This document shows, one piece after another, positions 15,368 through 48,378 of a DNA stretch of 64,000 bases. Numbering within the stretch: position 1 is the stretch's first letter; each line of letters begins with the position of its first letter. A program made the position numbers and the translations under genes. The notes below the pieces were generated by a model. It was given only the letters and a program-made list of their open reading frames with translations, was not told the DNA's origin and ran no database searches. Origin of the DNA: Giardia muris (taxonomy: Eukaryota > Fornicata > Diplomonadida > Hexamitidae); the NCBI GenBank assembly GCA_006247105.1, contig CM016928.1, positions 1,225,659 to 1,289,658 on the forward strand, written 5' to 3'.

Positions 15368-15778
15368 TCAGATATTGAAGTTGCTCGCATCTGGGAGGTA
15401 GCCCGAAGCGCAGGCGTCGTACGTTCCGGTTCCGAGGAGATATCCGGCCTTGCAAGTCTGGCAGGTGTTGGCGTTCGTGCAGGTCGCACAATTGGTTGGA
15501 CAGGCCGTGCACGTATTGCTATCGAGGTAGAAGCCTTCATTGCAGGCGGTGCAAGCATCGGCGGCTGTGCACGCCTTACAACCAGCCGAGCAGGCCTGAC
15601 ATGCTTTGTTGGAATCAGCGTAATAGCCGTCGTTGCAGGTCTCGCACTTGTCGGCTTCATCAGCGACACACGTTGTGCAATGATCGACGGTGCAATCCGT
15701 CCTCATCCTTATGCACTCCCCCGTCCCGGCTCCTTCCGTACACGAGAGGGCTCTCGCGTTCTTCCCTCCCCTCACCAT
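15368..15778 (-). pseudogene. VSP cassette fragment, truncated (unit m8)
   Basis: This is the outermost minus-strand VSP unit. The junction ATG at 15778 is in frame with MVRGGKNARALSCTEG, and the first ~110 residues match the plus-strand cassettes at 32536, 37688 and 39540 (AGTGECIRMRTDC, then CxxC repeats). After CQTCKAG the sequence diverges and stops at NFNI, 136 residues in all, so the ectodomain is cut short and the membrane helix and CRGK tail are missing. It has no signal peptide. It lies 4 bp after the stop of the next unit and marks the boundary between the array and the NFACT gene, with about 290 bp of gene-free sequence between them. Confidence 0.85.
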
Positions 15779-15782
15779 TCAC

Positions 15783-17675
15783 TCACTTCCCCCTGCACCC
15801 GAACCACCAACCGAGGAAGCCCCCGAGGCCTCCCAGGACCAGAAGGACGGCGATGACGATCCCCGCAATGGCACCCCCAGAGAGCCCCGAAGAGCTGGAG
15901 GAGGGGACGGCACTGCACTTCCCGTCGGTCGGAGCACTCCCGTCCCAGCACGTGATGCAGGCCGAGGCGGAGCACGTCGTGCAGCCACTGGGGCAGGCCT
16001 TGCAGTCAGAGGAGGAGGCGACGGAGGTCGTGTTGTAGTACCCGAGACCGCAGGACGTGCAGGTGGTGGCAGAGGAGCATGCCCCACACCCGGCCGGACA
16101 GAGGGTGAAGACGCCATTGGAGAGGGGGAAGGGGGAGCCATTGGCAGCAGTAGTGCACTTCCCATTGGAGGCCGATGAGCACAGCTTGCTCCCGACCGAA
16201 GTCCCAGGATTGGTGGCCGCAGGATAGCAGCCCCCCTCGAAGAGGAAGTAGGTCGTCGAACAGTTCTCGCACCTCGTGGCGGTCCCGTCGACAGGAGTCC
16301 CGTCGGCCTTCTTGCAGACGTCGTTGGTGGTCGTCCTCGAGATGGTCGAGCTGACCTCGAGGCACGTCCCGTCGATCGGAACACTTCCCTTCTTGCACTC
16401 CTTGCACACCAGGGCCTCCCCGACGAGAAGCTGGTTGCTCCTGGCACAGAGGCCCGTCTTGTCCGCATCGAAGGAGGAGAGGCAGGAGGAGTTGGAGAGC
16501 ATGCATCCGTTGAGGCAGGACGTGCAGGAGAAGGACCCGGAGTAGGTGCAGGTGTTGCAGTTCGCCTTCCCGTTCGTCGCGTCCCCGCAGAGGTAGAGCT
16601 TGGTGTCCTTGAGGAAGGCGATGGAGGTCGGGGTCGAGCAGGTCCCGTCTGCCGTCCGAGTCGTCATTGCCTTGCACAGCTTGCTCCCGGGCTCCTTTGA
16701 CTGGGCATAGCACCCCCCGTTGAAGAGGAAGTGGGTGCTCGAGGACCCACAGGAGTTGCAGACCCCGACCTGGGTGTCCTCTTGGCTCGTCGTGCATGAG
16801 CTGGTCGGATCGGCCGTCCCCCCTTCCACCTTCAGACACCTCCCGTCGACGGGGGCGAGCCCCTTCCCGCACTTACCGCAGAGGACCTCGGACCAGCCCG
16901 GGACGGAGAAGGACTCGAGGCAGATCCCGAGGCTCTTGAGGCTCTCGGGGCTGAAGCAGCCGTCGTGGAAGAAGAGGCTCCCCTCCTTGCAGTCCGTGCA
17001 CTTTCCGGAGTTGGCGTCCGGGGTGCAGGAGGAGGCACTGTCCTTGAGGACGCACTTCCCGTTGACGGGGACGTGAGTGGCAGCATTGCACTCGAGACAC
17101 ACGAAGCTGGTCCCGATCTGCATGCAGCTCTTGCAGTTCTCGTCCGATGAGCAGCTGACGCAGGAGGTGATCGTTGGTGCATCGAGGCTCTCCACGACAG
17201 GCCCGAATCCGGAGGCGCACTCCGTGCAGGTCGGCTTGTCGGCGGCGGGGGAGGTGCAGGTCTTGCAGTTGGGAACCCCGTTCGTCTTATCATCACAGGT
17301 GTAGAGGCCTGAGGGGTTGGACTCGCTCCCCTTCACGAAGATGCCTGTCGCAGTATCAGCCCTCTCTGAGCACTGCCCTTTGGTGGCCGTCTGGCAGAGA
17401 GCAGCGCCCTCGCCTCCACTGGCCTGGTTGTAGCAGCCCCCGTAGAAGAGGAAGTAGGTCCCTGTACATGCCGTGCAGACACCAGTGGTTGTGTCCTTCG
17501 TACAATCGTTGGCTGTTGGGGCCTTGCACGTCCCGTCGATCGAGGCCTGGTTCGTGTCACTGCACTCCTTGCAGACCTTCCCCAGCGTCCCGAGGTCGAG
17601 GCAGCTCCCCGTCTTGCAGTCGCCTGATGTCTCTCCTTCCGTACACGAGAGGACTCTCGCGTTCTTCCCTCCCCT
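15783..17675 (-). pseudogene. Silent VSP cassette (unit m7), no in-frame ATG
   Basis: An open frame of 630 residues runs from an in-frame TAA just upstream to TGA at 15783. It covers a complete Cys-rich ectodomain, an SGGAIAGIVIAVLLVLGG membrane helix and the GCRGK tail. The junction ATG at 17682 is out of frame: it reads ATGGTAAAGGGGAGGG, one base longer than in-frame cassettes (ATGGTGAGGGGAGGG). The first in-frame start-like codon is a GTG 113 codons in, so that is not a credible start. There is no signal peptide. From GSESNPSGLYTC on, the protein equals unit m6; the N-terminal block (ETSGDCKTGSCLDLG) is shared with the cassettes at 24853, 34388 and 41392. Confidence 0.85.
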
Positions 17676-17686
17676 TTACCATTCAC

Positions 17687-19579
17687 TCACTTCCCCCTAC
17701 ATCCGAACCACCAACCGAGGAAGCCCCCGAGACCTCCCAACACCAGCAGGACGGCAATGACGATCCCCGCAATGGCACCCCCAGAGAGCCCCGAGGAGCT
17801 GGAGGAGGGGACGGCACTGCACTTCCCGTCGGTCGGAGCACTCCCGTCCCAGCACGTGATGCAGGCCGAGGCGGAGCACGTCGTGCAGCCACTGGGGCAG
17901 GCCTTGCAGTCAGAGGAGGAGGCGACGGAGGTCGTGTTGTAGTACCCGAGACCGCAGGACGTGCAGGTGGTGGCAGAGGAGCATGCCCCACACCCGGCCG
18001 GACAGAGGGTGAAGACGCCATTGGAGAGGGGGAAGGGGGAGCCATTGGCAGCAGTAGTGCACTTCCCATTGGAGGCCGATGAGCACAGCTTGCTCCCGAC
18101 CGAAGTCCCAGGATTGGTGGCCGCAGGATAGCAGCCCCCCTCGAAGAGGAAGTAGGTCGTCGAACAGTTCTCGCACCTCGTGGCGGTCCCGTCGACAGGA
18201 GTCCCGTCGGCCTTCTTGCAGACGTCGTTGGTGGTCGTCCTCGAGATGGTCGAGCTGACCTCGAGGCACGTCCCGTCGATCGGAACACTTCCCTTCTTGC
18301 ACTCCTTGCACACCAGGGCCTCCCCGACGAGAAGCTGGTTGCTCCTGGCACAGAGGCCCGTCTTGTCCGCATCGAAGGAGGAGAGGCAGGAGGAGTTGGA
18401 GAGCATGCATCCGTTGAGGCAGGACGTGCAGGAGAAGGACCCGGAGTAGGTGCAGGTGTTGCAGTTCGCCTTCCCGTTCGTCGCGTCCCCGCAGAGGTAG
18501 AGCTTGGTGTCCTTGAGGAAGGCGATGGAGGTCGGGGTCGAGCAGGTCCCGTCTGCCGTCCGAGTCGTCATTGCCTTGCACAGCTTGCTCCCGGGCTCCT
18601 TTGACTGGGCATAGCACCCCCCGTTGAAGAGGAAGTGGGTGCTCGAGGACCCACAGGAGTTGCAGACCCCGACCTGGGTGTCCTCTTGGCTCGTCGTGCA
18701 TGAGCTGGTCGGATCGGCCGTCCCCCCTTCCACCTTCAGACACCTCCCGTCGACGGGGGCGAGCCCCTTCCCGCACTTACCGCAGAGGACCTCGGACCAG
18801 CCCGGGACGGAGAAGGACTCGAGGCAGATCCCGAGGCTCTTGAGGCTCTCGGGGCTGAAGCAGCCGTCGTGGAAGAAGAGGCTCCCCTCCTTGCAGTCCG
18901 TGCACTTTCCGGAGTTGGCGTCCGGGGTGCAGGAGGAGGCACTGTCCTTGAGGACGCACTTCCCGTTGACGGGGACGTGAGTGGCAGCATTGCACTCGAG
19001 ACACACGAAGCTGGTCCCGATCTGCATGCAGCTCTTGCAGTTCTCGTCCGATGAGCAGCTGACGCAGGAGGTGATCGTTGGTGCATCGAGGCTCTCCACG
19101 ACAGGCCCGAATCCGGAGGCGCACTCCGTGCAGGTCGGCTTGTCGGCGGCGGGGGAGGTGCAGGTCTTGCAGTTGGGAACCCCGTTCGTCTTATCATCAC
19201 AGGTGTAGAGGCCTGAGGGGTTGGACTCGCTCCCCTTCACGAAGATGCCTGTCGCAGTATCAGCCCTCTCTGAGCACTGCCCTTTGGTGGCCGTCTGGCA
19301 GAGAGCAGCGCCCTCGCCTCCACTGGCCTGGTTGTAGCAGCCCCCGTAGAAGAGGAAGTAGGTCCCTGTACATGCCGTGCAGACACCAGTGGTTGTGTCC
19401 TTCGTACAATCGTTGGCTGTTGGGGCCTTGCACGTCCCGTCGATCGAGGCCTGGTTCGTGTCACTGCACTCCTTGCAGACCTTCCCCAGCGTCCCGAGGT
19501 CGAGGCAGCTCCCCGTCTTGCAGTCGCCTGATGTCTCTCCTTCCGTACACGAGAGGACTCTCGCGTTCTTCCCTCCCCT
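17687..19579 (-). pseudogene. Silent VSP cassette (unit m6), tandem twin of m7
   Basis: An open frame of 630 residues, with an in-frame TGA just before it, has the same coding content as m7; the C-terminal 517 residues are identical between the two. The junction ATG (19586) is out of frame by one base through the longer ATGGTGAAGGGGAGGG form. It has complete VSP architecture from the ectodomain to GCRGK but lacks a signal peptide and a usable start. Its repeat period with m7 is 1904 bp. A mosaic relative lies at 41392-43287 on the other strand. Confidence 0.85.
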
Positions 19580-19590
19580 TCACCATTCAC

Positions 19591-21093
19591 TCACTTCCCC
19601 CTGCATCCGAACCACCAACCGAGGAAGCCCCCGAGACCTCCCAACACCAGCAGGACGGCAATGACGATCCCCGCAATGGCACCCCCAGAGAGCCCCGAGG
19701 AGCTGGAGGAGGGGGGAGGGGGGCAGGTCCCATTGAAGGATGACCCGTCCCAGCAGGTCGTGCAGGCCGTCGTGTTGCATCCCGTGCAGCCCGAGTGGTA
19801 GATCGAGCACGCCTTGCAGTCGGGGGCGGCAGAAGCATTGGTGTTGGCGTTGTAGTACCCGAAGCCGCAGGACGTGCAGGTGACGGCACCGCTCGAGGAG
19901 GTGCAGGCCCCGCACCCCGGGACCTTCGAGGAGCAGGAGGCGAGGACGTTGTTGTCGAGGTAGAGGCCCGAGGTGGTATTGACAGTCTTGCAGACCCCAC
20001 CAGAGGCCGAGGTGCAGGCGCTCTTCCCGACCTCCGTGGAGGCGTTGTAGCAGCCCCCGTTGAGGAGGAAGAAGCTGGATCCACCTGCGTCCTGGCACTT
20101 CCCGCACCTCGTGGAGGACGCGTCGGGGGCGGTTCCGTCCTCCTTCTGGCAGATCTGGGTCGCCCTCGTCACGTTCGTCGAGGCGACCAGAAGGCATTCT
20201 CCGTTGATCGGGACGAAGCCCGGCTTGCACTCGGAGCAGACCGTCGTGTTCCCGACCAGGAACTGCTTCTCCTTCGCACAGACGCCCAGCTCGGCGGCCT
20301 TGAAGGTCGAGTAGCATCCCTCGAGGTAGGGGACGTATCCATTGAGGCAGGACGTGCAGGTGCCGGAGGAGTCGGTGCAGACCTTGTCGTTCTTATCCAC
20401 GCACGTCCCGTCGATCGGGACCTTGTTGTCCTTGCAGGAGACGCACACGCGCCCGAACCCGATGTCGGCGCACTCCTTGCATGTCTCGGGGCAGGCCTGG
20501 CAGGAGTCGATGCGGGGGAACGTGCTGAAGACGGGCTCGTAGCCGGATTCGCAGGCCGTGCAGATCTTCTCGTCCGTGTCGCAGAATATGCAGTGCTCGA
20601 GAGTGCACTTCTTGCAGGTCTTGGAGCCGCTTTCATCAACGAGGCCGAATCCTAAGAAGCAGCCCGTGCAGGTGAAGACTTCTCCAGTACGAGAGTCGGG
20701 AGTTGATGGAGTTGTTGTCGTGTAGGTGCACGTACCGCAGTTCTCTTTTCCTCCATTTGTCGCATCGCTACAGAGGTAGAGGTTGCTGTCCTTGATGAAG
20801 GTGATGGCATCGGTAGTTGGAGCCGTCTTGCAGGTTCCGTTCTTTGTATCCTGGAGGGCGGAGCACAGCTTACTCCCAACCCCCTGTGTCTGGTCATAAC
20901 AGCCTCCCTCGAACAGGAAGTAGTTCCCCGTTCCACATCCTGTGCAGACACCACTACCACAAGTAGCACCCGTGACAGTATTAGTCGGATCCGCTGCACA
21001 AGCCCCATTGATCGGGGCCTCACCCGTCTCACTGCACTTCTTGCATAACTCTCCCTCAACCCCCGGGATGGTGAAGGTCGAACCACCCCCGTC
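19591..21093 (-). pseudogene. Silent VSP cassette (unit m5), no in-frame ATG
   Basis: An open frame of 500 residues starts after an in-frame TGA. It opens DGGGSTFTIPGVEGELCKKC, and the block TFTIPGVEG recurs at the start of units m2 and p12. The junction ATG at 21113 is out of frame. The first start-like codon in frame is a GTG about 215 codons in (VCVSCKDN). The C-terminal block from CSSKVPGCGACTSSSG to the membrane helix and GCRGK is shared with m2, p2, p5 and p10. No signal peptide is present. The middle part (ESGYEPVFSTFPRIDSC) is private to this unit within the window. Confidence 0.8.
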
Positions 21094-21117
21094 TCATCCT
21101 TCCCCTTCACCATTCAC

Positions 21118-23115
21118 TCACTTCCCCCTGCACCCGAACCACCAACCGAGGAAGCCCCCGAGACCTCCCAACACCAGCAGGACGGCAATGACGATCCCCG
21201 CAATGGCGCCCCCCGAGAGCCCCGAGGAGGACGAAGAAGACCCCGAGACGCTGTCGGGAGCACAGACCGAGGGAGTGCCGGTCGGGGCCTGTCCGTTCGC
21301 ACAGAGGGTGCAGACGGTGGCTCCTGTGCACCCCACGCAGTTATCGATGACCGTCGAGCAATCCTTGCAGGAGTTGGAGTCGGAGTAGTGTCCGAAGACA
21401 CAGCCTCCGGTGCACGTCTTCCCGTCTGTTCCGCAGTCATTGCATCCGTTCGAGCAGGGGACGAGGCCCTTCGAGCCGTCCTTGTAGAAGCCGGAGTTCG
21501 AGGTGGGCGTCGTGCAGCCTCCATTGTTGTCGGCCGTGGTGCAGACCTTCTGACCGAGTGTGTCATCGGTCGAGTAGCACCCCCCGTTGAGGAGGAAGTA
21601 CTTCCCGTTGCTGTCATTGCACCCCGAGCAGGCCGTCCTCCCCCCGTTGGGGACGCAGTTCGACTCTCCCAACCGGGACGACGGGAGGGCCGTGCAGGTC
21701 CCGTTGATGGGGACGCTTCCAGTCGGACACTCGGAACAGACGAGGCTCTCCCCGATAAGGAAGGTCTTCCCGTCCGCACAGAGCCCGAAGGCGTCCGAGT
21801 TCCGAGGACTGTAGCAACCACCGCTGGCCGGCATGAAGCCCCCCTTGCAGCCCGAACAGACCCCACTCGAGGCTGTGCAGACCCCGGCGTATCCTGTCGC
21901 CTTCTCGCACCTCCCGTTGATCGGAACGTCGTTCGTTCCGCACTTCGTCGCCACGGCCCGGCCCCCGAGGAGCGCGCAGGTCACAACTCCTTGCAGGCCC
22001 CCGTCCTCGAGGCAGGACAGGAGGCTCGTCCCGTTCAGATAGAGGCCATCTCCGGGCTTGGTGCAGAGGCCCCCGGAGGCGGACGAGCACTGGTCGGAGT
22101 ATGTGGCGGTCGTGTAGCAGCCCCCCTTGAAGAGAAAGTGGGTGTCGGCACACTTCGTGCAGGCGCCCCCGCTCTTCTCGGTGCATGGGGCAGCGCTCTC
22201 TGTGCACGCCTCGTCGACGGGATACTTCCCCGTCTTGCACTGGGAGCAGACGACCTTCGTCCCGAAGGCGGCGTACTTCTCGCAGTCCTGAACCCCGTCG
22301 TGCTGGAGACATCCGATGATCTCCGTCCCCCTCTTGACCGTCAGGGCGTCGTTCCCGCAGGCCGTGCACTGAACCCCTCCGTCCTTGGTCGTGCATGTCT
22401 GACAGTTCCCGACGCCTCCTGGGGCCGTCGAGCAACTGAGGCAGGCTGATGAGGCGATGACGAAGCCATCGAGACAGACTGAACAGGAGGAGGCCGTGCA
22501 CGTCTTGCAGCCCGAGGAGCAGGCCTTGCATGATTTGTCGGTCGAGTCGAGGTAGTAGCCAGACTTGCACTCTGAGCAGGCGGAGGAGGAGCACGTCTTG
22601 CAATTGGTGTCGGTGCAAGCAGTGCATGTATTGCTATCGAAGTAGTAGCCCTCGTCACAAGAGTCGCAGTGAGTGGCCGAGGTCGAGCACGTCTTGCAGG
22701 TCGAGTCGCAGAGAGAGCAAGCATCAGTCGTCGCAGTCGCAGCAGCATTGGGGAAGAGCCCGTCTCCGCACGTCGTGCACTTGAAGGTGTCAGTGGCATC
22801 CGTTGCCGTGCAGACGGGGCTGCCGGCCTTAGCCTCGTAGCAGCCGCCCTGGAAGAGGACGAAGCCATTTCCGCAGTTCCCGCACTTCGTTGCACTGTCC
22901 TCAAGCTCAGTGCTGGCATCCTTCTTGCATGCTGCTTTAGTAGTGTCGTCCACTGCTGCGCAGTTTCCATTGATGGGGACGTTCCCCGCATCGCACTCCG
23001 TGCAGACCTGCGTGCTCCCGAACTTCAGGCACTTGTCCGTTCCGCAGTTCGCTATGGCAGGACTGCAGGCAGCTGGAGCGGGAGCGGTTCGAGCCTTCCC
23101 TCCCCCCTTCACCAT
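21118..23115 (-). CDS. VSP cassette without signal peptide (unit m4), ATG in frame
   Basis: At 665 residues this is the longest unit. The junction ATG at 23115 is in frame (MVKGGGKARTAPAP), but no hydrophobic signal peptide follows, so the product would not enter the secretory route as it stands. The early segment NCGTDKCLKFGSTQVC aligns with residues just after the signal peptide of the complete gene at 27999 (NCGTDKCLTFGRTTQVC). CxxC repeats run throughout, with GGCY motifs, then the Ser-rich stalk, an SGGAIAGIVIAVLLVLGG helix and GCRGK. Its C-terminal ectodomain (SVCAPDSVSG) differs from the other units. It is more likely an archive copy than an expressed gene. Confidence 0.7.
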   Translation of the reverse strand: MVKGGGKARTAPAPAACSPAIANCGTDKCLKFGSTQVCTECDAGNVPINGNCAAVDDTTKAACKKDASTELEDSATKCGNCGNGFVLFQGGCYEAKAGSPVCTATDATDTFKCTTCGDGLFPNAAATATTDACSLCDSTCKTCSTSATHCDSCDEGYYFDSNTCTACTDTNCKTCSSSACSECKSGYYLDSTDKSCKACSSGCKTCTASSCSVCLDGFVIASSACLSCSTAPGGVGNCQTCTTKDGGVQCTACGNDALTVKRGTEIIGCLQHDGVQDCEKYAAFGTKVVCSQCKTGKYPVDEACTESAAPCTEKSGGACTKCADTHFLFKGGCYTTATYSDQCSSASGGLCTKPGDGLYLNGTSLLSCLEDGGLQGVVTCALLGGRAVATKCGTNDVPINGRCEKATGYAGVCTASSGVCSGCKGGFMPASGGCYSPRNSDAFGLCADGKTFLIGESLVCSECPTGSVPINGTCTALPSSRLGESNCVPNGGRTACSGCNDSNGKYFLLNGGCYSTDDTLGQKVCTTADNNGGCTTPTSNSGFYKDGSKGLVPCSNGCNDCGTDGKTCTGGCVFGHYSDSNSCKDCSTVIDNCVGCTGATVCTLCANGQAPTGTPSVCAPDSVSGSSSSSSGLSGGAIAGIVIAVLLVLGGLGGFLGWWFGCRGK

Positions 23116-23119
23116 TCAC

Positions 23120-24853
23120 TCACTTCCCCCTGCATCCGAACCACCAACCGAGGAAGCCCCCGAGGCCTCCCAGGACCAGAAGGACGGCAATGACGATCCC
23201 CGCAATGGCACCCCCCGAGAGCCTGGAAGAACTGGAGCCGGAAGCCTCGAGGGCCTTGCACTTCGGGTCGGTGGCGGCGGGGGCGGACCCGTCGAGGCAG
23301 GTCGTGCAGGTGGCGGCATCGGAGCACGAGGCGCAGTTCTCGACGGAGCAGGGAGTGCAGGCGTTGCTGGAGGGCGTCTCCACATACCCGACCCCGCACT
23401 TCGAGCAGGTCGAGGCATCGCTGCACGCCACGCATCCTGACATCTTTGAGGAGCAGGAAGTAAGCTGGGTCCCCTCAAGGAGGAAGGGGCTGTCCTGGGC
23501 CGTCCGGGTGCAGGCCCCATTGGCGGCCGTTGAGCAGATCTTGTTCCCAAGGGAGCCCGCATTGCTTGTTCCTGCGGGGTAGCAGCCCCCGTTGAGGAGG
23601 AAGTAGTTTGTTCCTCCATTCGTCCCGCACTTGTCGCAGGACGTCGAGGAGGCGTCGACGGGGCTGTCGTCACTCTTCTTGCAGACATCTTCGATGTTCG
23701 CCCTCGAGAGAGCCGACCCGACCTCGACACACGCCCCATCGATCGGGACGGTCCCGGCCTTACACTTGGAGCAGGCCCGCTGGTCTCCGACGAGGAAGGA
23801 CGAGGCACAGATCCCGAGGGAGGCGGCTCTGGAGGAGGAGTAGCACCCGCCCTCGTAGAGCATGAAGCCGTTCTTGCAGGAGGCGCACTTGTTGCCATTG
23901 GAGGTGCAGACGTTGCTGGCGGGGGCAGTGGTACTCGACCGGCAGACGCCGTCCACGGGGACGAAGCTTGTTTGACACTCCTTGCAGATCGCAAAGGTCC
24001 CGTTCAGAGCGAGAGCCGAGGCGGTCGGGCAGTGGGGGTCCTTGACGTCCGCTCCTCCGACCGGGATGCACTTCGTATTGGTCCCCGTTCCTGTCTTCGC
24101 ATATCCATCGAGGCAGACGGTACATCCATCGGCTGTGCATGTCCTGCAGTTCTCGACAGAACACTTCGTGCAGGTGATAGGAGTGCCAGTGGAGTAGTAT
24201 CCTTCGAGGCACTCCGAGCAGCCGCTGGAGTCGCACACCTTACAGCCCGAGGAGCAGGGGACGCAGACCTTGTTGGAGACGTAGTACCCATCCTCGCAGG
24301 TGTGACAGGTGTCAGCATCGGTCACCAGGAGGCAGTGCTGGAGGGAGGACTGGATGCATTCTGACTTGTCCTGATCCGGGAGGAAGCCCGTCCTGCACGC
24401 ATTGCACTTGGGCTTGTTGGTGGCGGGGGAGGTGCAGGCCGCGCAGTTGGGAACCCCGTTCGTCTTATCATTACAGGTGTAGAGGCCTGAGGGGCTGGAC
24501 TCGCTCCCCTTCACGAAGATGCCTGTCGCAGTATCAGCCCTCTCTGAGCACTGCCCTTTGGTGGCCGTCTGGCAGAGAGCAGCGCCCTCGCCTCCACTGG
24601 CCTGGTTGTAGCAGCCCCCGTAGAAGAGGAAGTAGGTCCCTGTACATGCCGTGCAGACACCAGTGGTTGTGTCCTTCGTACAATCGTTGGCTGTTGGGGC
24701 CTTGCACGTCCCGTCGATCGAGGCCTGGTTCGTGTCACTGCACTCCTTGCAGACCTTCCCCAGCGTCCCGAGGTCGAGGCAGCTCCCCGTCTTGCAGTCG
24801 CCTGATGTCTCTCCTTCCGTACACGAGAGGACTCTCGCGTTCTTCCCTCCCCT
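23120..24853 (-). pseudogene. Silent VSP cassette (unit m3), no in-frame ATG
   Basis: An open frame of 577 residues lies between an in-frame TGA and the stop at 23120. The junction ATG (24860) is one base out of frame in the ATGGTGAAGGGGAGGG form. The rest is almost identical to the plus-strand cassettes at 29242 and 34388 (CRTGFLPDQDKSECIQSSLQHC, then SVENCASCSDAATC near the end), with isolated differences such as GSESSPSG against GSESNPSG. It has a full ectodomain, membrane helix and GCRGK but no signal peptide. Confidence 0.85.
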
Positions 24854-24864
24854 TCACCATTCAC

Positions 24865-26427
24865 TCACTTCCCCCTGCATCCGAACCACCAACCGAGGAA
24901 GCCCCCGAGACCTCCCAACACCAGCAGGACGGCAATGACGATCCCCGCAATGGCACCCCCAGAGAGCCCCGAGGAGCTGGAGGAGGGGGGAGGGGGGCAG
25001 GTCCCATTGAAGGATGACCCGTCCCAGCAGGTCGTGCAGGCCGTCGTGTTGCATCCCGTGCAGCCCGAGTGGTAGATCGAGCACGCCTTGCAGTCGGGGG
25101 CGGCAGAAGCATTGGTGTTGGCGTTGTAGTACCCGAAGCCGCAGGACGTGCAGGTGACGGCACCGTTCGAGGAGGTGCAGGCTCCGCACCCCGGGACCTT
25201 CGAGGAGCAGGAGGCGAGGACGTTGTTGTCGAGGTAGAGGCCCGAGGTGGTATTGACAGTCTTGCAGACCCCACCAGAGGCCGAGGTGCAGGCGCTCTTC
25301 CCGACCTCCGTGGAGGCGTTGTAGCAGCCCCCGTTGAGGAGGAAGAAGCTGGATCCACCTGCGTCCTGGCACTTCCCGCACCTCGTGGAGGACGCGTCGG
25401 GGGCGGTTCCGTCCTCCTTCTGGCAGATCTGGGTCGCCCTCGTCACGTTCGTCGAGGCGACCAGAAGGCATTCTCCGTTGATCGGGACGAAGCCCGGCTT
25501 GCACTCGGAGCAGACCGTCGTGTTCCCGACCAGGAACTGCTTCTCCTTCGCACAGACGCCCAGCTCGGCGGCCTTGAAGGTCGAGTAGCATCCCTCGAGG
25601 TAGGGGACGTATCCATTGAGGCAGGACGTGCAGGTGCCGGAGGAGTCGGTGCAGACCTTGTCGTTCTTATCCACGCACGTCCCGTCGATCGGGGCCTGAC
25701 CAGTCGGACACTCGGTGCAGACGAGCCCCGGACCGAGGTTGGTGCAGGAGGTGCAGTTCTTGGGACAGGAGTCGCAGGACGTGATGGCAAGGGAGGAGTT
25801 GTAGGTCGGGCCGAAGGAGGGGAGGCAGGCCGAACAGGTCTTCTCGTCCGTGTCGCACGTCTTGCAGTTCTGGATGGTGCAGGCCTTGCAGGTCGAGCCG
25901 GCAAGAAGGCCGAAGCCGGGGCTGCAGGCGGAGCAGGTGTCGGCAGCACTCACCTGGGCACAGTTGGAGCACTTGGAGGTGTCACTGCATGTCTCGCAGC
26001 TCCCGTCGGTCTTGGGGAGGTAGTCCTTGGCACAGGAGGTGCACTTGAAGGTCGAGTCGTATGTGCAGGTCTCGCAGTTCGCCTTCCCGTTCGTGCTGTC
26101 ACTGCAGAGGTAGAGGATGTCACTCTTGACGAAGGTGACCGCGTCCTTGTCCGGGACGGCCGTGCACTTCCCGTTGGTGGCCGTCTTGCAGAGCTTGTTC
26201 CCGGGAGAGGTGTCCGTCTTGTAACAACCCCCGTTGAACAGGAAGTACGGATCTGGGCAGGCCGTGCAGGCACCACTACCACAAGTAGCACCATTCCCAA
26301 TCGTGGTGGCCGCAGCAGTGTCACAGAGCCCGTTGACAGGGGCGGAGTTAGTGTTAGTCGAGACATCGCACTTCTTGCAGAACGTCCCCTCAACCCCTGG
26401 GATGGTGAAGGTCGAACCACCCCCGTC
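24865..26427 (-). pseudogene. Silent VSP cassette (unit m2), no in-frame ATG
   Basis: This unit lies immediately downstream of the complete VSP. The frame is open for 520 residues after an in-frame TGA at 26428-26430 and begins DGGGSTFTIPGVEGTFCKKC. The junction ATG at 26447 is out of frame. The only early start-like codon in frame is a GTG at 25953, well inside the ectodomain. The middle (LPSFGPTYNSSLAITSC) and the whole C-terminal block are shared with p2, p5 and p10. The membrane helix and GCRGK are intact; there is no signal peptide. Confidence 0.85.
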
Positions 26428-26451
26428 TCATCCTTCCCCTTCACCATTCAC

Positions 26452-27999
26452 TCACTTCCCCCTGCATCCGAACCACCAACCGAGGAAGCCCCCGAGACCT
26501 CCCAACACCAGCAGGACGGCAATGACGATCCCCGCAATGGCGCCCCCCGAGAGCCCCGAAGAACTGGAGGAGGGGGGATCGGGACACTTCCCACTGGTGT
26601 CGGGGCCGCTTCCATTCCAGCAGGTCGTGCAGGCGTCCTTCGTGCAGACCGTGCATCCTGAAGGGCAGGCCGTGCAGTTGAAGGTGCCCCCAGAGGCCGA
26701 GTTGTAGTATCCGATGGAGCAGTTAGTGCAGGTGAGGGCATTGTTGTTCGAGGTGCACGTCCCGCACCCGGCCGGGCAGAGGGTGAAGGTCCCTGAGGTC
26801 GTGTCGAGAGGGAAGGGGGAGCCAGCAGCAGCCTGAGAGCACTTCCCATCAGCGGCCGTCTGACAGAGGCTCGCCCCGATGGAGTCCTGGGTTGTTGGGT
26901 AGCAGCCTCCATTGAAGAGGAAGTAGTTCGTTGAGCAGTTCCCGCACTTTGTAGCAGTTGTCGAGACGGGGTCGGTCCCGGCCTCATTGAGGCAGACGTC
27001 GTTGGCGCCCACCGCCCTCGTTCCCTTGTTAATGTCCCCGATCGGGGTGCAGGTCCCATCAATCGGGACGAACCCGACCTTGCACTCCTTGCAGACGAGG
27101 GCCTCCCCGACGAGGAACTGGTTACTGTTGGCGCAGAGGCCCATCGCGTTCGCCTTGTAGGAGGAGATGCAGCCTTTCTGATAGAGCATGTACCCGTTCT
27201 TGCAGGATGTGCATGTGCCGTCGGAGGCCGTTGGCTCGGTGCAAACCTTTGTATTCGAGTCAACGCACTCTCCATCGATCGGGACCTTCCCGTTGTTGCA
27301 GGCGGTGCAGACGACCCCGAGGCCAAAATCGGCACAGCTCTTGCAGTCCGCAGAGCACTGCGTGCAGGTCTTCTTGGAATTGACGTAATAACCATCGTTG
27401 CAGGTCTCACATTCGTTCGTCTTGTCAGTGACGCACGCCTTGCAGTTCTCAACACTGCACGTAGAAGCCGGGGTTGAGGGACATGCGCCATTTTCAGGTG
27501 AGCCGGTATAGCAGGCTGTACATATATTAGAATCCCCATTATTACAGGCCTTGCATGACGCGTCGCAGAGGTTGCAGGATCCAGCGGTGTTCAAAGCCAG
27601 TCCGTCCTTGCACGTGCCACATTTCCCGTTTTCTGTAGAAGCGGTGGCACAGATGAGGGAGGTCGCGGGGTCTTTAGGATAGCAGCCCCCCTGGAAGAGG
27701 ACGAAGGCGTCCCCGCACTTCTCGCATACACCGGCGTCTGGCGTAGCGTCGTCCGACTTTGCGCACCCCGCTGTTGTCACTGCAGCATCGGCCACTGCTA
27801 CGCAGGTCCCATTGATCGGAGCGTGGGTGTTGGCACATGCTGTGCAGACCTGTGTCGTTCTCCCGAATGTCAGACATTTGTCCGTTCCGCAGTTCGTGAC
27901 GGAAGACTCGCAGGCTCCAGGAGTAGGAGTTGCTCGAGATTTGGCCTCGACGTGAACTGCAACAGCGACGCTAATTAAAAGCCCTACAGTAACTAACAT
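26452..27999 (-). CDS. Complete variant-specific surface protein with signal peptide (unit m1)
   Basis: This is the only VSP in the window with all parts. The ATG at 27999 is preceded by TTCAAAAAACTAGTG and more AT-rich DNA (about 28000-28075), unlike any other unit. A GTG at 28002 is one codon upstream, but ATG is preferred. Seen (515 aa): a signal peptide MLVTVGLLISVAVAVHVEA with likely cleavage after A19, a Cys-rich ectodomain of CxxC repeats with GGCY motifs, a Ser-rich stalk, one membrane helix (GGAIAGIVIAVLLVLGG) and the tail GCRGK. Known: VSPs coat Giardia trophozoites, with one type usually shown per cell. Inference: it could be the expression-competent recipient for the surrounding cassettes. 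Its block GSPFPLDTTSGTFTLC recurs, slightly changed, in unit p8. Confidence 0.9.
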   Translation of the reverse strand: MLVTVGLLISVAVAVHVEAKSRATPTPGACESSVTNCGTDKCLTFGRTTQVCTACANTHAPINGTCVAVADAAVTTAGCAKSDDATPDAGVCEKCGDAFVLFQGGCYPKDPATSLICATASTENGKCGTCKDGLALNTAGSCNLCDASCKACNNGDSNICTACYTGSPENGACPSTPASTCSVENCKACVTDKTNECETCNDGYYVNSKKTCTQCSADCKSCADFGLGVVCTACNNGKVPIDGECVDSNTKVCTEPTASDGTCTSCKNGYMLYQKGCISSYKANAMGLCANSNQFLVGEALVCKECKVGFVPIDGTCTPIGDINKGTRAVGANDVCLNEAGTDPVSTTATKCGNCSTNYFLFNGGCYPTTQDSIGASLCQTAADGKCSQAAAGSPFPLDTTSGTFTLCPAGCGTCTSNNNALTCTNCSIGYYNSASGGTFNCTACPSGCTVCTKDACTTCWNGSGPDTSGKCPDPPSSSSSGLSGGAIAGIVIAVLLVLGGLGGFLGWWFGCRGK

Positions 28000-28075
28000 C
28001 ACTAGTTTTTTGAAGCTGATCGCCCCTTCAAAAATATTTCGCGAAAAAGTTGGTGCCTTCTTATTAAAAGATGGA
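28000..28075 (-). promoter_or_regulatory. AT-rich upstream region of the complete VSP gene
   Basis: This stretch stands out from the GC-rich array. On the gene strand it holds TTTTAATAAGAAGG, then a TTTTTCGCGAAATATTTTTG palindrome-like segment (TTCGCGAA core), then AAAAAACTAGTG next to the ATG. Giardia promoters are short and A/T-rich around the start, so this fits an initiator. None of the other VSP units has a comparable segment. Activity is inferred. Confidence 0.55.
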
Positions 28076-28936
28076 TGGTGGGGAGCCAGAAGGTGCTGGG
28101 CCTTCCATTCCTGAAGTTATTCGAGAAGTCACGAAACCTAAGATGGAGGACTCTTGGAGGGGAGGAACATCCCGCATCTGGCGGTCTCGGGGTTGTCGAC
28201 AGACGTGTTCACTCAGAGGCTTCGGACAGAGGAGACCACCCCTGCCAGCCGCCTCGACTGCACGAGTCTTGAGACTCCCTCGTCCCTGAAGGGAGCTGCC
28301 GTATGAGCCCAATCTCTTGTTGATGAAAGACATCTTCGATGGTGGGTCTTGGCCGAGGAGTCCCACTGAGCAGAGGCTATGGTACCGCCATGCCGAAGCA
28401 ATTCCATGGACTTCATCAATCACCAATACATCTGGACCCCTCTCTTCGTTTTACAGCCTCCGGAGCAACATATCACTGTCCCGGACCTTCCCAGACTCCT
28501 GCAAGCCCGAAAACGATTTTTCCTTTTGCTGTCTTGATACCTCAGGAGCTCAGCTCCGAAGGCCCCCGGGGACATCATCAACGAGGACCTGGAGATTTCT
28601 GCTGGTCTGCAAGCTGGGACTTACACTTGAGGTGGTCCTAATACTGAGAGTTCGATGACACATCCTCCTCGGGTCCCAGTGGTCCTGAGGCCGCTGCTTG
28701 GTCTCCCCCCATCTGCGAGGGTAGCTCGAAAAACAAGTGTTACTTCACTGAAAGGATCGAGAGTTGCTGGTCCGCGGGGTATCGGGAGACGCGAGTTCCA
28801 CCAGTTCGAGGATGGGGAGGAAGGACCACTGACTCACTAGAACAGGGGGAGACACATGTGAGCACCCCTGCATGCCCAACTGCGAGGCTGCTGCGTCAGG
28901 ACCGGCATGAGGATCGGAGTTCGTGTCTTCAACACG
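28076..28936. other. Gene-free centre of the head-to-head VSP arrays
   Basis: I see no intact gene in this ~860-bp stretch. On the minus strand near 28390-28430 a short frame reads VLVIDEVHG, which resembles an NTPase Walker B segment, but it is interrupted upstream by stops and has no partner motifs. It may be decayed coding DNA. It separates the complete VSP from the kinase fragment. Confidence 0.4.
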
Positions 28937-29228
28937 TCAGTCCGCCTGCTTGTTCCGTTCTGCCTCCTCAAGGACCTCTCGTGCTGTCGGACGGTCTTTG
29001 GGGTCCTTCAAGAGCATCCGAGAGATGAGGGGAGCAAGCTCACTCCTTCCCTCGATGACTGGGGGCTCTTCCTCGGTGATGGCAGTTACCCTGAGGAAGG
29101 GAAGCCTCCCAGTGCACAACTCATATCCCATCACCCCCAGAGCCCAGACGTCCCCACTACATCTACCCCAGTGCAGTACTCGGGACGATCGACCGCTCCT
29201 CCGGAAGAGCAGTACCGGAGATCGACGT
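28937..29228 (-). pseudogene. NEK-like protein kinase C-lobe fragment
   Basis: On the minus strand the frame reads CSGDVWALGVMGYELCTGRLPF (kinase subdomain IX), then EEPPVIEG, then LISRMLLKDPKDRPTAREVL (subdomain XI with the conserved Arg), and ends NKQAD-stop. This is typical of the NEK kinases expanded in Giardia. The N-lobe, the catalytic HRD/DFG region and any start codon are missing: upstream the frame runs straight into antisense VSP cassette sequence at about 29240. It is a truncated remnant, broken where the plus-strand VSP array begins. Confidence 0.8.
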
Positions 29229-29241
29229 CCTCGAGGGCTCG

Positions 29242-30986: not shown

Positions 30987-32531
30987 AGGGGGGAGGTGAA
31001 GGCTCGAGCCACGGGAGAGTGCGAGGCAAACTCAAAGTTCACCATCCCGGGGGTTGATGGAGAGTTCTGCAAGAAGTGCAGTGACACGAACCAGGCCCCG
31101 ATCAATGGGGCTTGTGCAGAGAATCCGACTAATACTGTCTCGGATGCTGAATGTGCCAATGGTGTCTGTACAAAGTGTGGAACAGGTGACTACTTCCTCT
31201 TCTATGGTGGGTGATACAGCAAGACGGGTGACGTCGGGAAGAAGCTCTGCTCAACCGTCGCCAGTGGTGCTTGTACTGCGGCGGCCACGGATGCCATCAC
31301 CTTCGTCAAGGACAGTAAGCTCTACCTCTGCAGTGACAACTCGACAGATGCAGGAGGAAAAGAGAACTGCGGTACATGCACCTATGCGGCCCCAACTACA
31401 GGAGGGGGCTCAGGTGGAAACGGAGGTTCGACCACCTCCCGTGCCGGAGAGGTCTTCACCTGCAAGTCCTGCCTTCCCGGCTTCGGCCTTCTTGCCGACA
31501 AGACCTGCAAGGCCTGCACCATCCAGAACTGCAAGACGTGCGACACGGACGAGAAGACCTGTTCGGCCTGCCTCCCCTCCTTCGGCCCGACCTACAACTC
31601 CTCCCTTGCCATCACGTCCTGCGACTCCTGTCCCAAGAACTGCACCTCCTGCACCAACCTCGGTCCGGGGCTCGTCTGCACCGAGTGTCCGACTGGTCAG
31701 GCCCCGATCGACGGGACGTGCGTGGATAAGAACGACAAGGTCTGCACCGACGTCTCCGGCACCTGCACGTCCTGCCTCAATGGATACGTCCCCTACCTCG
31801 ATGGATGCTACTCGACCTTCAAGGCCGCCGAGCTGGGCGTCTGTGCGAAGGAGAAGCAGTTCCTGGTCGGGAACACGACGGTCTGCTCCGAGTGCAAGCC
31901 GGGCTTCGTCCCGATCAACGGAGAATGCCTTCTGGTCGCCTCGACGAACGTGACGAGGGCGACCCAGATCTGCCAGAAGGAGGACGGAACCGCCCCCGAC
32001 GCGTCCTCCACGAGGTGCGGGAAGTGCCAGGACGCAGGTGGATCCAGCTTCTTCCTCCTCAACGGGGGCTGCTACAACGCCTCCACGGAGGTCGGGAAGA
32101 GCGCCTGCACCTCGGCCTCTGGTGGGGTCTGCAAGACTGTCAATACCACCTCGGGCCTCTACCTCGACAACAACGTCCTCGCCTCCTGCTCCTCGAAGGT
32201 CCCGGGGTGCGGAGCCTGCACCTCCTCGAACGGTGCCGTCACCTGCACGTCCTGCGGCTTCGGGTACTACAACGCCAACACCAATGCTTCTGCCACCCCC
32301 GACTGCAAGGCGTGCTCGATCTACCACTCGGGCTGCACGGGATGCAACACGACGGCCTGCACGACCTGCTGGGACGGGTCGTCCTTCAATGGGACCTGCC
32401 CCCCTCCCCCCTCCTCCAGCTCCTCGGGGCTCTCTGGGGGTGCCATTGCGGGGATCGTCATCGCCGTCCTTCTGGTGTTGGGAGGCCTCGGGGGCTTCCT
32501 CGGTTGGTGGTTCGGGTGCAGGGGGAAGTGA
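30987..32531 (+). pseudogene. VSP cassette with internal stop (unit p2)
   Basis: The frame follows an in-frame TGA (30984-30986) and reads KARATGECEANSKFTIPG. The junction ATG at 30980 is out of frame because of an inserted T (GGAGGTGAAGG instead of GGAGGGAAGG). At 31212-31214 the Cys codon of the first GGCY motif is TGA (TGC to TGA). Past that stop the VSP frame continues to the membrane helix and GCRGK. It has a private Gly/Ser-rich insert (TTGGGSGGNGGSTTS). It therefore has three independent defects: no signal peptide, a shifted start and a nonsense codon. p5 carries the same three. Confidence 0.9.
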
Positions 32532-37687: not shown

Positions 37688-39535
37688 ATGGTGAGGGGAG
37701 GGAAGAACGCGAGAGCCCTCTCGTGTACGGAAGGAGCCGGGACGGGGGAGTGCATAAGGATGAGGACGGATTGCACCGTCGATCATTGCACAACGTGTGT
37801 CGCTGATGAAGCCGACAAGTGCGAGACCTGCAACGACGGCTATTACGCTGATTCCAACAAAGCATGTCAGGCCTGCTCGGCTGGTTGTAAGGCGTGCACA
37901 GCCGCCGATGCTTGCACCGCCTGCAATGAAGGCTTCTACCTCGATAGCAATACGTGCACGGCCTGTCCAACCAATTGTGCGACCTGCACGAACGCCAACA
38001 CCTGCCAGACTTGCAAGGCCGGCTTCACCCTCTCAGGGACCAGCTGCGTCCAAGGATCGGCTCCTTCTGCGTGCACCATCCAGAACTGTCAGACGTGCAA
38101 CGACGACAACACGAAGTGCTTGACGTGCAACGAGAACTTCCTTCCGAAAGCTGACGGGACCTGCGTCTCCTGCACTGACACCACCAAGTGTTCTAACTGT
38201 GTCCAGGTGAGTGATGTTGACACCTGCTCCAAGTGCGCGGACGAGTACTTCCTCGACACCACATGTAAGAAGTGCAGCGCGGGTTGTAAGACGTGCACGG
38301 ATGCCACTGCCACCACATGCTCCGCCTGCATGCCCGGCTACAAGCACGACAGCGGCGCCAAGACTTGCACGGCCTGTACTGACACTAATTGCAAGACGTG
38401 TGACACCGACGTCAGCACATGCACCGCCTGCAAGGAGGGCTTCGGCCTCGTCGGATCCGACACCAAGACCTGCACGGCCTGCAGCATCAAGAACTGCGGG
38501 ACCTGTGACGACAACAAGGACGTCTGCACCTCCTGTCTGGACGGGTTCGGGCCCGTCTACGACTCATCCCTCGTCATCACGAACTGCACCTCCTGCCCCG
38601 CGGACTGCACCGACTGCGCCGACCAGGGCTTCTCGACCATCTGCGAGAAGTGCGGAACGGGGAAGGTCCCCATCGACGGGAACTGCTCCACGAACTCGAA
38701 CGTCTGCACGGCCCCAACGACCCCAGACGGGACCTGCTCGTCCTGCAAGAACGGGTTCCTCTTCTACCAGGGCGGGTGTCTCTCCCCCCAGAAGGCGGCG
38801 GACCTCAAGGTCTGTGCCCTGGGAAGCCAGCTCCTCGTCGGGAACACGACCGTCTGTACCGAGTGCAAGGGGGGCTTCGTCCCGATCGACGGGGAGTGTC
38901 TTCCGATCAAGCAGATCAACACGGGGACGACGAGGGCAGGTCAGAACATCTGCCTCGACGAGAAGGGGAACAAGGTCTCGGACACCGCCACGAAGTGCGG
39001 GGCCTGCATCAATACGACAGTCAACACCAACAACTACTTCCTCTTCAACGGGGGCTGCTACCCCATCCCGGCCTCGACTTCGACCACCGGGACCTCGGTC
39101 GGGAGTAAGCTGTGCTCAGCGGCCTCCAACGGGAAGTGCACCGCCGCCCCGACCAGCGGGGGCCCCTTCCTCGTGGACGCGAACGGGACCTTCACCCCCT
39201 GTCCGGCCGGCTGTGGGGCCTGCACCTCCTCGAACGGTGCCGTCACCTGCACGTCCTGCGGCTTCGGGTACTACAACGCCAACACCAATGCTTCTGCCAC
39301 CCCCGACTGCAAGGCGTGCTCGATCTACCACTCGGGCTGCACGGGATGCAACACGACGGCCTGCACGACCTGCTGGGACGGGTCGTCCTTCAATGGGACC
39401 TGCCCCCCTCCCCCCTCCTCCAGCTCCTCGGGGCTCTCTGGGGGTGCCATTGCGGGGATCGTCATTGCCGTCCTTCTGGTGTTGGGAGGCCTCGGGGGCT
39501 TCCTCGGTTGGTGGTTCGGGTGCAGGGGGAAGTGA
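37688..39535 (+). CDS. VSP cassette without signal peptide (unit p6)
   Basis: This unit has 615 aa, ATG in frame, and is the same cassette as p3 and p7. It carries KQINTGTTRAGQNIC like p7, but its C-terminal GACTSSNGAVTC block matches m2, p2 and p5 rather than p3 or p7, which is a mosaic signature. There is no signal peptide; the membrane helix and GCRGK are intact. Confidence 0.75.
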   Translation: MVRGGKNARALSCTEGAGTGECIRMRTDCTVDHCTTCVADEADKCETCNDGYYADSNKACQACSAGCKACTAADACTACNEGFYLDSNTCTACPTNCATCTNANTCQTCKAGFTLSGTSCVQGSAPSACTIQNCQTCNDDNTKCLTCNENFLPKADGTCVSCTDTTKCSNCVQVSDVDTCSKCADEYFLDTTCKKCSAGCKTCTDATATTCSACMPGYKHDSGAKTCTACTDTNCKTCDTDVSTCTACKEGFGLVGSDTKTCTACSIKNCGTCDDNKDVCTSCLDGFGPVYDSSLVITNCTSCPADCTDCADQGFSTICEKCGTGKVPIDGNCSTNSNVCTAPTTPDGTCSSCKNGFLFYQGGCLSPQKAADLKVCALGSQLLVGNTTVCTECKGGFVPIDGECLPIKQINTGTTRAGQNICLDEKGNKVSDTATKCGACINTTVNTNNYFLFNGGCYPIPASTSTTGTSVGSKLCSAASNGKCTAAPTSGGPFLVDANGTFTPCPAGCGACTSSNGAVTCTSCGFGYYNANTNASATPDCKACSIYHSGCTGCNTTACTTCWDGSSFNGTCPPPPSSSSSGLSGGAIAGIVIAVLLVLGGLGGFLGWWFGCRGK

Positions 39536-46377: not shown

Positions 46378-46381
46378 GTGA

Positions 46382-47824
46382 ATGGTGAGGGGAGGGAAGA
46401 ACGCGAGAGTCCTCTCGTGCACGGAAGGAGCCGGGACGGGGGAGTATACAAGAGCGAGGACGACGTGCACCGTCCCTAATTGTAAGACGTGCAACTCTGC
46501 TGACAGCACGAAGTGCGACACCTGCGAGGACGGCTTCTATCCTTCAACTGACAAGACCTCCTGCATCACCTGCCCCACTGGTTGCACGAAGTGCTCTGAT
46601 GCCAGCACCTGCTCCGCCTGCATGCCCGGCTACAAGCACGACAGCGGCGCCAAGACCTGCACTGCCTGTACCGTCACTGGCTGCAAGACCTGCGACACCG
46701 ATGTCGCCACATGCACAGAGTGCCTCGACGGCTACCACTCTACCACAGCCGCCGACTCTTCTTCCGTCACCTGCACGGCCTGCGACCTCCAGAACTGCGG
46801 AGCCTGCAACACTGACAAGAGCCAGTGCGAGGCGTGCAAGAGCGGCTTCGGCCCGACCTACAGCTCTTCCCTCTCCATCACGGCCTGCAGCAAGTGCCCC
46901 GACAACTGCGAGAGCTGCATCGACTTCGGCCTCGGCTCGGGGCTCGTCTGTGTCGGGTGTCCAACTGGGAAGAACCCGATCAACGGAGAGTGCGTCGATG
47001 CGAACACGAAGGTCTGCACGGGGTCCTCCGGGTCCTGCACTTCCTGCCTCAACGGCTTCCTGGCCTATCAGGGCGGATGCTTCTCTCCCCAGAAGGCGGC
47101 GGACCTCAAGATCTGCTCTCTGAAGAACCAGCTTCTTGTTGGGAGCACGACCGTCTGCAAGGAGTGCCCTTCTGGCTTCGTTCCATTTGACGGGACCTGC
47201 ACGCCCCTGGCCACCGTCAACAAGAAGACGACGAGGGCGGCAGGCGCCAACGACATCTGCCTCAACGAGGCCGGGAGCGACCCCGTCTCGTCCAGTGCCA
47301 CGAGGTGCGGGAGCTGCAAGAATCCGACTGTGACCAATTCTCCCAACTACTTCCTCTTCGAGGGCGGGTGCTATCCTGTATCTTCGACCACCGGGACTTC
47401 GGTCGGGAGCAAGCTGTGCTCAGCGGCCTCCAACGGGAAGTGCACTACTGCCGCCCCCAACGCCCCCTTCATCCTCGATGCATCCTCAGGCGCCTTCACG
47501 GCCTGTCCGAAGGAGTGCGGGGCCTGCACGAACGCGACCGCCTGCAGCTCCTGCGCCCTTGGGTACTACAACACGACCACTACTGTGACCGGCCCCTCCG
47601 ACTGCACGGCCTGCCCCAGTGGGTGCACCTCCTGTCCAAATGGGAAGTGCACCCTCTGCTGGGACGGCTCCACTCCCACCAACAATGCCTGCCCCCCTCC
47701 CCCCTCCTCCAGCTCCTCGGGGCTCTCTGGGGGTGCCATTGCGGGGATCGTCATTGCCGTCCTGCTGGTGCTGGGAGGTCTCGGGGGCTTCCTCGGTTGG
47801 TGGTTCGGATGCAGGGGGAAGTGA
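46382..47824 (+). CDS. VSP cassette without signal peptide (unit p11)
   Basis: This unit has 480 aa with ATG in frame (MVRGGKNARVLSCTEGAGTGEY). The segment MPGYKHDSGAKTCTAC is shared with p3, p6 and p7, while the C-terminal ectodomain (KECGACTNATACSSC, SCPNGKCTLCWDG) is private. The membrane helix and GCRGK are intact. There is no signal peptide. Confidence 0.75.
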   Translation: MVRGGKNARVLSCTEGAGTGEYTRARTTCTVPNCKTCNSADSTKCDTCEDGFYPSTDKTSCITCPTGCTKCSDASTCSACMPGYKHDSGAKTCTACTVTGCKTCDTDVATCTECLDGYHSTTAADSSSVTCTACDLQNCGACNTDKSQCEACKSGFGPTYSSSLSITACSKCPDNCESCIDFGLGSGLVCVGCPTGKNPINGECVDANTKVCTGSSGSCTSCLNGFLAYQGGCFSPQKAADLKICSLKNQLLVGSTTVCKECPSGFVPFDGTCTPLATVNKKTTRAAGANDICLNEAGSDPVSSSATRCGSCKNPTVTNSPNYFLFEGGCYPVSSTTGTSVGSKLCSAASNGKCTTAAPNAPFILDASSGAFTACPKECGACTNATACSSCALGYYNTTTTVTGPSDCTACPSGCTSCPNGKCTLCWDGSTPTNNACPPPPSSSSSGLSGGAIAGIVIAVLLVLGGLGGFLGWWFGCRGK

Positions 47825-47848
47825 GTGAATGGTGAAGGGGAAGGATGA

Positions 47849-48378
47849 GACGGGGGTGGTTCGACCTTCACCATCCCGGGGGTTGAGGGAGAGTTCTGCA
47901 AGAAGTGCGATGTCTCGACTAACACTGACTCCGCCCCTGTCAACGGGCTCTGTGACACTGCTGCGGCCACCACGATTGGAACTGGTGCTACTTGTGCCAG
48001 TGGTGCCTGCACAGGATGTGGAACGGGGAACTACTTCCTGTTCGAGGGAGGTTGTTATGACCAGACCAAGGCGCCTGGGAACAAGCTGTGCGGAGCGACT
48101 CCAACTGACGGTGCTTGTACGACGGCTCCAACTAAGGATTCCCCTACCTTCGTCAAGGACAGCACCCTCTACCTCTGTAGCGATGCAACAAATGGAGGAA
48201 AAGAGAACTGCGGTACATGCACCTACGCCTCGAACGCCTTCACGTGCTCGAAGTGCCTCGAGGGCCACCACTCTTCCTCCTCTTCTCCCGTCGTCTGCAC
48301 GAAGTGCACCTTCCCCAACTGTGGATCCCGTCCAGACAGCAAGGACGTCTGCACGACCTGCCTCAACGGCTTCCAGGA
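47849..48378 (+). pseudogene. Truncated VSP cassette (unit p12) at array edge
   Basis: This is the last plus-strand unit. The frame opens after an in-frame TGA with TFTIPGVEGEFCKKC, as in m2 and m5, and the junction ATG at 47829 is out of frame. After CTTCLNGFQE (about 48378) the VSP pattern stops and unrelated sequence follows; the frame happens to stay open to 48652, inside the ankyrin gene. The C-terminal half, membrane helix and tail are missing. It is the mirror of the truncated unit at the other end of the array. Confidence 0.85.

Follow-up and report, generated by a model that had tools for sequence, protein, structure and literature searches.

What is a single complete VSP gene doing at the turning point of an array of VSP copies that lack a signal peptide (SP), and what are these copies for? 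The question is raised by the last 64 kb of a Giardia muris contig (C4, bases 1225659-1289658 of 1289658), which was analysed as a whole stretch of 64,000 nucleotides (nt) and is called the window here. The window was compared with the genome searched, 9737486 bases in 52 contigs, those of concern being written C1, C2, C3, C4 and C5. The answer that emerges has two sides: the complete gene, m1, appears to be assembled from other complete genes and not from its neighbours, and the surrounding copies, which we call cassettes, probably belong to a silent store of sequence whose traces are found in complete genes far away.

As a first-pass annotation made from the letters alone had described, the window contains 20 VSP units in two divergent head-to-tail arrays. 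The minus strand has eight of them (15368-27999); the other 12 belong to the plus strand (29242 to about 48378). A transmembrane (TM) helix, the tail GCRGK and a stop close 18 of the 20 units. All three units submitted to Pfam (m1, p3 and m4) match the VSP family (PF03302), and units share blocks of hundreds of bases at 97-100% identity in direct and inverted orientation, so that the array is not a chance pattern. The count of CXXC is 16-33 per frame in the 17 window frames. The position is that of a chromosome end: the window runs to the end of the contig, the ribosomal DNA (rDNA) is distal, the tails of the plus array face the end and m1 stands at the switch of direction. The units are as follows, lengths being given in amino acids (aa).

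26452-27999, minus strand: m1, only complete VSP of the window, 515 aa, with leader A, hydrophobic start, cysteine-rich body, TM and GCRGK
24865-26427, minus strand: m2, SP-less cassette, open, 520 aa
23120-24853, minus strand: m3, SP-less cassette, open, 577 aa
21118-23115, minus strand: m4, SP-less cassette, open, 665 aa, header KARTAPAPAAC
19591-21093, minus strand: m5, SP-less cassette, open, 500 aa
17687-19579, minus strand: m6, SP-less cassette, open, 630 aa
15783-17675, minus strand: m7, SP-less cassette, open, 630 aa, near-duplicate of m6
15368-15778, minus strand: m8, truncated cassette without TM or tail
29242-30975, plus strand: p1, SP-less cassette, first in the plus array, open (frame open from 29095)
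30987-32531, plus strand: p2, SP-less cassette with an in-frame stop within the GGCY motif
32536-34383, plus strand: p3, SP-less cassette, open, 615 aa
34388-36127, plus strand: p4, SP-less cassette, open, 579 aa
36139-37683, plus strand: p5, copy of p2 sharing its in-frame stop
37688-39535, plus strand: p6, SP-less cassette, open, 615 aa
39540-41387, plus strand: p7, SP-less cassette, open, 615 aa
41392-43287, plus strand: p8, SP-less cassette, open, 631 aa
43302-44864, plus strand: p9, SP-less cassette, open, 520 aa
44872-46377, plus strand: p10, SP-less cassette, open, 501 aa
46382-47824, plus strand: p11, SP-less cassette, open, 480 aa
47849-48378, plus strand: p12, truncated cassette without TM or tail

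SPs were called from hydrophobicity (Kyte-Doolittle). Among the window units a strongly hydrophobic stretch (mean 2.71 over its best 10 residues) follows an ATG in m1 alone, which is thus the one unit with the SP of a complete VSP. Within the array, 60-mers with a GC content of 0.40 or less are confined to about 27800-28200, at the m1 start, the left edge (15300-15399) excepted. Two further features lie at this start.

28000-28060, minus strand: AT-rich stretch (GC 0.40) directly 5′ of the m1 ATG
27598-29038, minus strand: 1441-nt block, 98.5% identical to the C3:597k locus, with upstream flank, AT-rich start region, leader and the first approximately 134 codons

The first-pass annotation had assigned AT-rich upstream DNA, an ATG and an SP to m1 only. 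The first and the last are indeed found nowhere else in the array, but an in-frame ATG without an SP also opens eight of the 17 full-length cassettes (p3, p4, p6, p7, p8, p10, p11 and m4), 4-7 bp past the preceding stop, where it overlaps the polyadenylation-like signal of the preceding unit; GC upstream of these eight is 0.60-0.65. Similarly, 17 of the 19 SP-less units do extend in full from header to tail as had been stated, but 15 are open from the post-signal-peptide header to GCRGK: in p2 and p5 one and the same in-frame stop interrupts the GGCY motif. The remaining two of the 19 (m8 and p12) are truncated. The short gaps between units are also real, at 4-24 bp from a stop to the next open frame and not the 4-40 bp first given. 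The G. lamblia initiator PyAatgTT has a single match in the window (7854, outside the array; 4.8 expected by chance) and is absent from m1 and every cassette. At E 0.001, m1 has no match among solved structures.

Is m1 built from its neighbours? In the tract test, m1 without its last 180 nt was compared in windows of 120 nt with the 17 full-length window cassettes; the best identity over 120 nt was 83%, and m1 has no segment in common with any of them. The tracts of m1 lead elsewhere: those shared at 97% or more, beating all cassettes by 5 points, are three, all with SP-bearing genes, nt 11-368 with a gene on C3, nt 506-860 with C2:1193692 and nt 876-1256 with C1:1965656. What m1 has in common with several neighbours is a 3′ block, 94-99% identical over the last 118-145 nt. 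For the other seven distinct SP genes the best identity to a window cassette is 82-88%, but 95% for C2:535673. Between a window cassette, its last 300 nt left out, and any of 14 SP-bearing genes, identity over 120 nt stays below 97%. Donors that adjoin one expression site and recombine into it, as in the VSG or vls systems, were not found, m1 having no tract from its own array; as a mosaic of other SP genes without a tract from its 17 neighbours, m1 leads us to reject local donors for this genome copy. Judged by its tracts, m1 is a complete gene that sits in the array but was apparently assembled from other complete genes, and no local expression site filled by neighbours.

Cassette sequence is found, on the other hand, in a complete gene on another contig. 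In the SP-bearing gene C3:597773-599947, all 87 informative sites up to nt 324 side with m1, whereas after nt 324 an SP-less telomeric cassette, C3_1281945, is favoured at 219 of 239 sites (20 with m1); none of 20000 shuffles reached the observed descent at this breakpoint. From nt 290 to 593 the gene is at least 97% identical to that cassette, compared with 82% for the best other SP gene, and the change of partner falls at the GGCY motif, inside a block that is conserved locally. Cassette-specific tracts are present in two of eight distinct SP genes, this one and C2:601389. Four further hand-picked triples, two of them with SP genes only, also gave 0 of 20000 shuffles. Breakpoints lie at a mean of 125 nt from GGCY against 348 nt at random, with 2.9% of random sets as close, a weak indication from only five hand-picked breakpoints. 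As far as alignment can tell, these comparisons show that complete genes are mosaics of segments; away from the window, at least one of them joins an m1-type 5′ part to telomeric-cassette sequence. Repetition is also seen among the cassettes themselves: duplicated blocks of the array include repeats at 5152-bp spacing and inverted copies, window cassettes share sequence with other arrays, and p8 has 27 nearly full-length relatives outside the window at 91-96% identity. These copies show evident shuffling and duplication of cassettes among themselves and with other chromosome ends.

Where does a cassette begin and end? A DNA search of the whole genome with 341 bases around the m1 start gave 37 matching places, nine of which, m1 included, span the leader (89-100%), while 28 begin at query positions 170-198, the leader ending near 179. 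At the other end stands AGTRAAY, which we take to be the Giardia polyadenylation-like signal; it is found close to the stop, at most a few bases away, in all 18 tail-bearing window units and in 60 of 62 VSP frames compared, the two misses being a frame cut by a locus end and the unit ending at C3:601839, which is fully visible. A putative polyadenylation signal overlapping the stop is reported for most G. muris genes (Xu et al., 2020, PMC7641422). As matches start at the leader edge and AGTRAAY follows the stop, a cassette is a VSP minus promoter, start and leader; in terms of sequence, its two edges show it to extend from the end of the SP to the stop plus the polyadenylation-like signal. Two leader types occur among the 14 SP-bearing genes compared. 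Four solitary units with window-type bodies were also inspected: three gave a GCRGK-ending frame with no SP seen in the first 170 residues, and the fourth gave no frame. Miniature arrays are found at C3:595000-603000 and C2:534107-539635, each a complete leader-A gene and then one SP-less cassette, head to tail.

Are the cassettes decaying? Constraint was examined in SP-less frames of at least 1300 nt, 36 of 48, the other 12 being dropped (seven cut by locus ends, five short or broken). In four identity bands from 75 to 99.9%, the ratio of nonsynonymous to synonymous rates (dN/dS) among these frames is 0.53, 0.52, 0.42 and 0.52, and among eight SP genes 0.44, 0.54, 0.47 and 0.26; it is 0.42-0.45 for the 17 window frames, the pairs behind all these values being mutually dependent. 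Nearest relatives at 97% or more differ by 112 synonymous and 160 nonsynonymous changes and no stops, against 68, 200 and 4.5 in a spectrum-matched null, and the nonsynonymous to synonymous ratio relative to the null is 0.60 in the 93-97% band and 0.63 in the 85-93% band. Of 61 indels, 42 are multiples of three. Differences among open cassettes thus look coding-constrained.

Arrays of this kind have been described before, in two papers. The G. muris draft genome (9.8 Mb, 59 contigs) was reported to contain 26 complete VSPs, 239 SP-less VSPs, defined as psiVSPs, and 17 arrays; an array is found at nine of 10 main contig ends, two arrays change direction at an intact VSP, and essentially all psiVSPs lack transcripts in the three stages studied (Xu et al., 2020, PMC7641422). 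The same authors liken psiVSP arrays to T. brucei and Pneumocystis, deduce recombination from relaxed phylogenetic clustering and invoke relaxed pressure and drift. For the arrays of G. lamblia, recombination cassettes have been proposed, while variation occurs in that species without DNA alteration (Adam et al., 2010, PMC2996952). The window array is presumably one of the two "scrambled" direction-switching arrays of Xu et al. As the arrays, their silence and the trypanosome analogy are in print (Xu et al., 2020), together with the cassette proposal (Adam et al., 2010), both the observation and its main interpretation are already known; the array itself is no new discovery, and the first-pass view of a cassette layer as a notable finding had been overtaken. 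Among the papers listed in literature searches, no test of recombination in G. muris VSPs was found beyond that of Xu et al. (2020). Our additions are the chimera traced at the level of tracts, the precise edges of a cassette, the test for constraint and the absence of neighbour tracts from m1, and parts of these may be contained in the supplementary figures of Xu et al.

The best explanation, and a fairly likely one, is that this telomere-adjacent psiVSP array, switching direction at one intact VSP, serves as a silent sequence reservoir that has exchanged segments with distant complete VSP genes over evolutionary time. Exchange would proceed by occasional homologous recombination or gene conversion, using conserved blocks such as those around the GGCY motif and in the 3′ TM/tail region, and would renew the expressed repertoire; the choice of the complete gene to be expressed probably depends on another mechanism, as it does in G. 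lamblia. We infer the reservoir role from shared tracts in one assembly, and the claim stops short of the direction of exchange and of switching by conversion. The earlier idea of silent donors feeding an expressed copy survives in part: cassettes begin after the SP, are mostly open and have a counterpart in the C3 chimera, but m1 carries no neighbour tract. Several points weigh against the reservoir. Six of the eight distinct SP genes have no cassette-specific tract; the triples of the shuffle test were chosen after the best matches were known; and a strict automatic single-breakpoint screen was positive in four of 2016 triples, all with C1_1967315, and did not recover the C3 chimera, such a screen being of little use for multi-part mosaics. 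Over 411 nt the C3 gene differs at five sites from four cassettes that are identical to one another, so that exchange could have run either way, and 14 complete genes were compared of the 26 published. In the constraint test only open frames were chosen, which biases it against stops and frameshifts, and low dN/dS need not mean selection on cassettes because conversion can import older selected differences. Finally, an internal array on C5 (C5:531344-553716) of 12 near-identical units at approximately 2017-bp spacing has apparently broken frames: 11 of the 12 units have an N-terminal frame of 395 aa, and the two units examined for it have a separate tail frame of 334 aa. This is what decay would give. 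A more ambitious version, for which we have only tentative confidence, makes the SP-less VSPs of G. muris a maintained donor layer, as opposed to pseudogenes in decay: a few leader blocks (promoter, start, SP and N-terminal part to GGCY), scattered across chromosomes, would take in cassette bodies through segmental recombination, so that antigenic variation would combine gene choice with DNA-level assembly, unlike in G. lamblia, where switching is described as DNA-neutral.

What else could account for the array? It might be a by-product, without any role, of unequal exchange and tandem duplication at recombination-prone chromosome ends, "remains of discarded vsp genes" being one option of Adam et al. 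(2010, PMC2996952). The duplicated blocks with their 5152-bp spacing and inverted copies, the two truncated and two stop-bearing units, the broken frames on C5 and the lack of psiVSP transcription (Xu et al., 2020, PMC7641422) would all fit; that 15 of 17 full-length units are open, that open cassettes keep a synonymous excess in all identity bands as well as frame-keeping indels, and that tracts are common to cassettes and complete genes make it unlikely. We regard as quite improbable the model of Borrelia vls or trypanosome VSG, in which m1 would be a local expression site that receives the surrounding cassettes by conversion when the parasite switches. Such a site would explain why only m1 has AT-rich upstream DNA and an SP, its 3′ block could anchor exchange, a leader-plus-cassette chimera does exist elsewhere, and an SP-bearing gene, with a different leader, likewise marks the turn of the second direction-switching array, at C1:2.76 Mb; however, outside its last 180 nt m1 stays at or below 83% over 120 nt to the window cassettes, every near-identical tract of m1 traces to an SP gene on a different contig, and complete genes are mostly chromosome-central (Xu et al., 2020, PMC7641422). 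Expression of the cassettes themselves, each from an ATG just past the stop before it or together in an operon that follows m1, would exploit the ATG at the very start of eight of them, but the other nine of the 17 have none there, essentially all psiVSPs are untranscribed (Xu et al., 2020, PMC7641422), and the product would be a surface protein without an SP. The ATGs moreover overlap the preceding polyadenylation-like signal in GC-rich surroundings, and we give this explanation very little credence. Hardly credible at all is trans-splicing of the m1 leader onto cassette RNAs, which the coincidence of cassette starts with the leader end might suggest: a Giardia 3′ splice/branch consensus is unmatched in 15300-48500 on both strands. 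Giardia does have a few trans-spliced genes, but those published are a small fixed set to which motif mining added none, and the cassettes are untranscribed (Xu et al., 2020, PMC7641422).

The surroundings of the array deserve a short description. Between the two arrays there is one further feature.

28937-29449, minus strand: protein-kinase remnant (31.3 bits, slightly below the Pfam cut-off of 31.7)

To the left lie ordinary genes (66-15074), encoding a NOT1-like protein (66-8825), a RING/DUF2921 membrane protein (9742-11916) and an NFACT-family protein (11883-15074). To the right, an ankyrin-repeat protein (48564-50084) sits between the last cassette and a single eukaryotic rRNA gene unit (18S, 5.8S and 28S; 51936-56257), which begins approximately 3.5 kb beyond that cassette. 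Distal to the rRNA genes, the two strands differ strongly in composition at 60000-63000 (AT skew 0.38-0.64, GC skew about -0.3), a stretch that also has imperfect CCCAAGA-like repeats. The second switching array occupies C1:2759000-2778500 and turns at the VSP C1:2762958-2764889; its centre shares only short pieces with that of the window.

How does the array compare with known systems? In T. brucei, VSG variation draws on a silent subtelomeric gene archive, mosaic expressed genes and an expression site. The window resembles it in the silent archive and the mosaic genes and differs in that m1 is not filled from its neighbours, complete genes are mostly central and no dedicated telomeric expression site is shown here. 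In Borrelia, one complete gene, vlsE, stands beside promoterless, leaderless vls cassettes, as m1 does beside its own; unlike vls, the window gives no evidence of local conversion into m1, its cassettes come with a 3′ end and a polyadenylation-like signal of their own, and many complete genes exist elsewhere. With the psiVSP arrays of Xu et al. (2020, PMC7641422) it shares SP-less VSPs placed head to tail, the GCRGK tail, tails directed to the chromosome end, rDNA at the ends and a switch at an intact VSP; where that study has relaxed clustering and drift, tract-level chimerism is seen here and open cassettes look constrained. The linear arrays of G. lamblia also have a first gene with an upstream region and sometimes the initiator, downstream members without them, short spacers and a cassette hypothesis, but they are not telomeric as a rule and are shorter, the longest having 10 members (Adam et al., 2010, PMC2996952), and in the window array the PyAatgTT initiator is lacking throughout, m1 included. 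The leader/cassette boundary and chimeras of the C3 type provide concrete junctions to seek in long reads, and if complete VSP genes are indeed renewed from the arrays, antigenic variation would depend on DNA recombination in some Giardia species and not in others.

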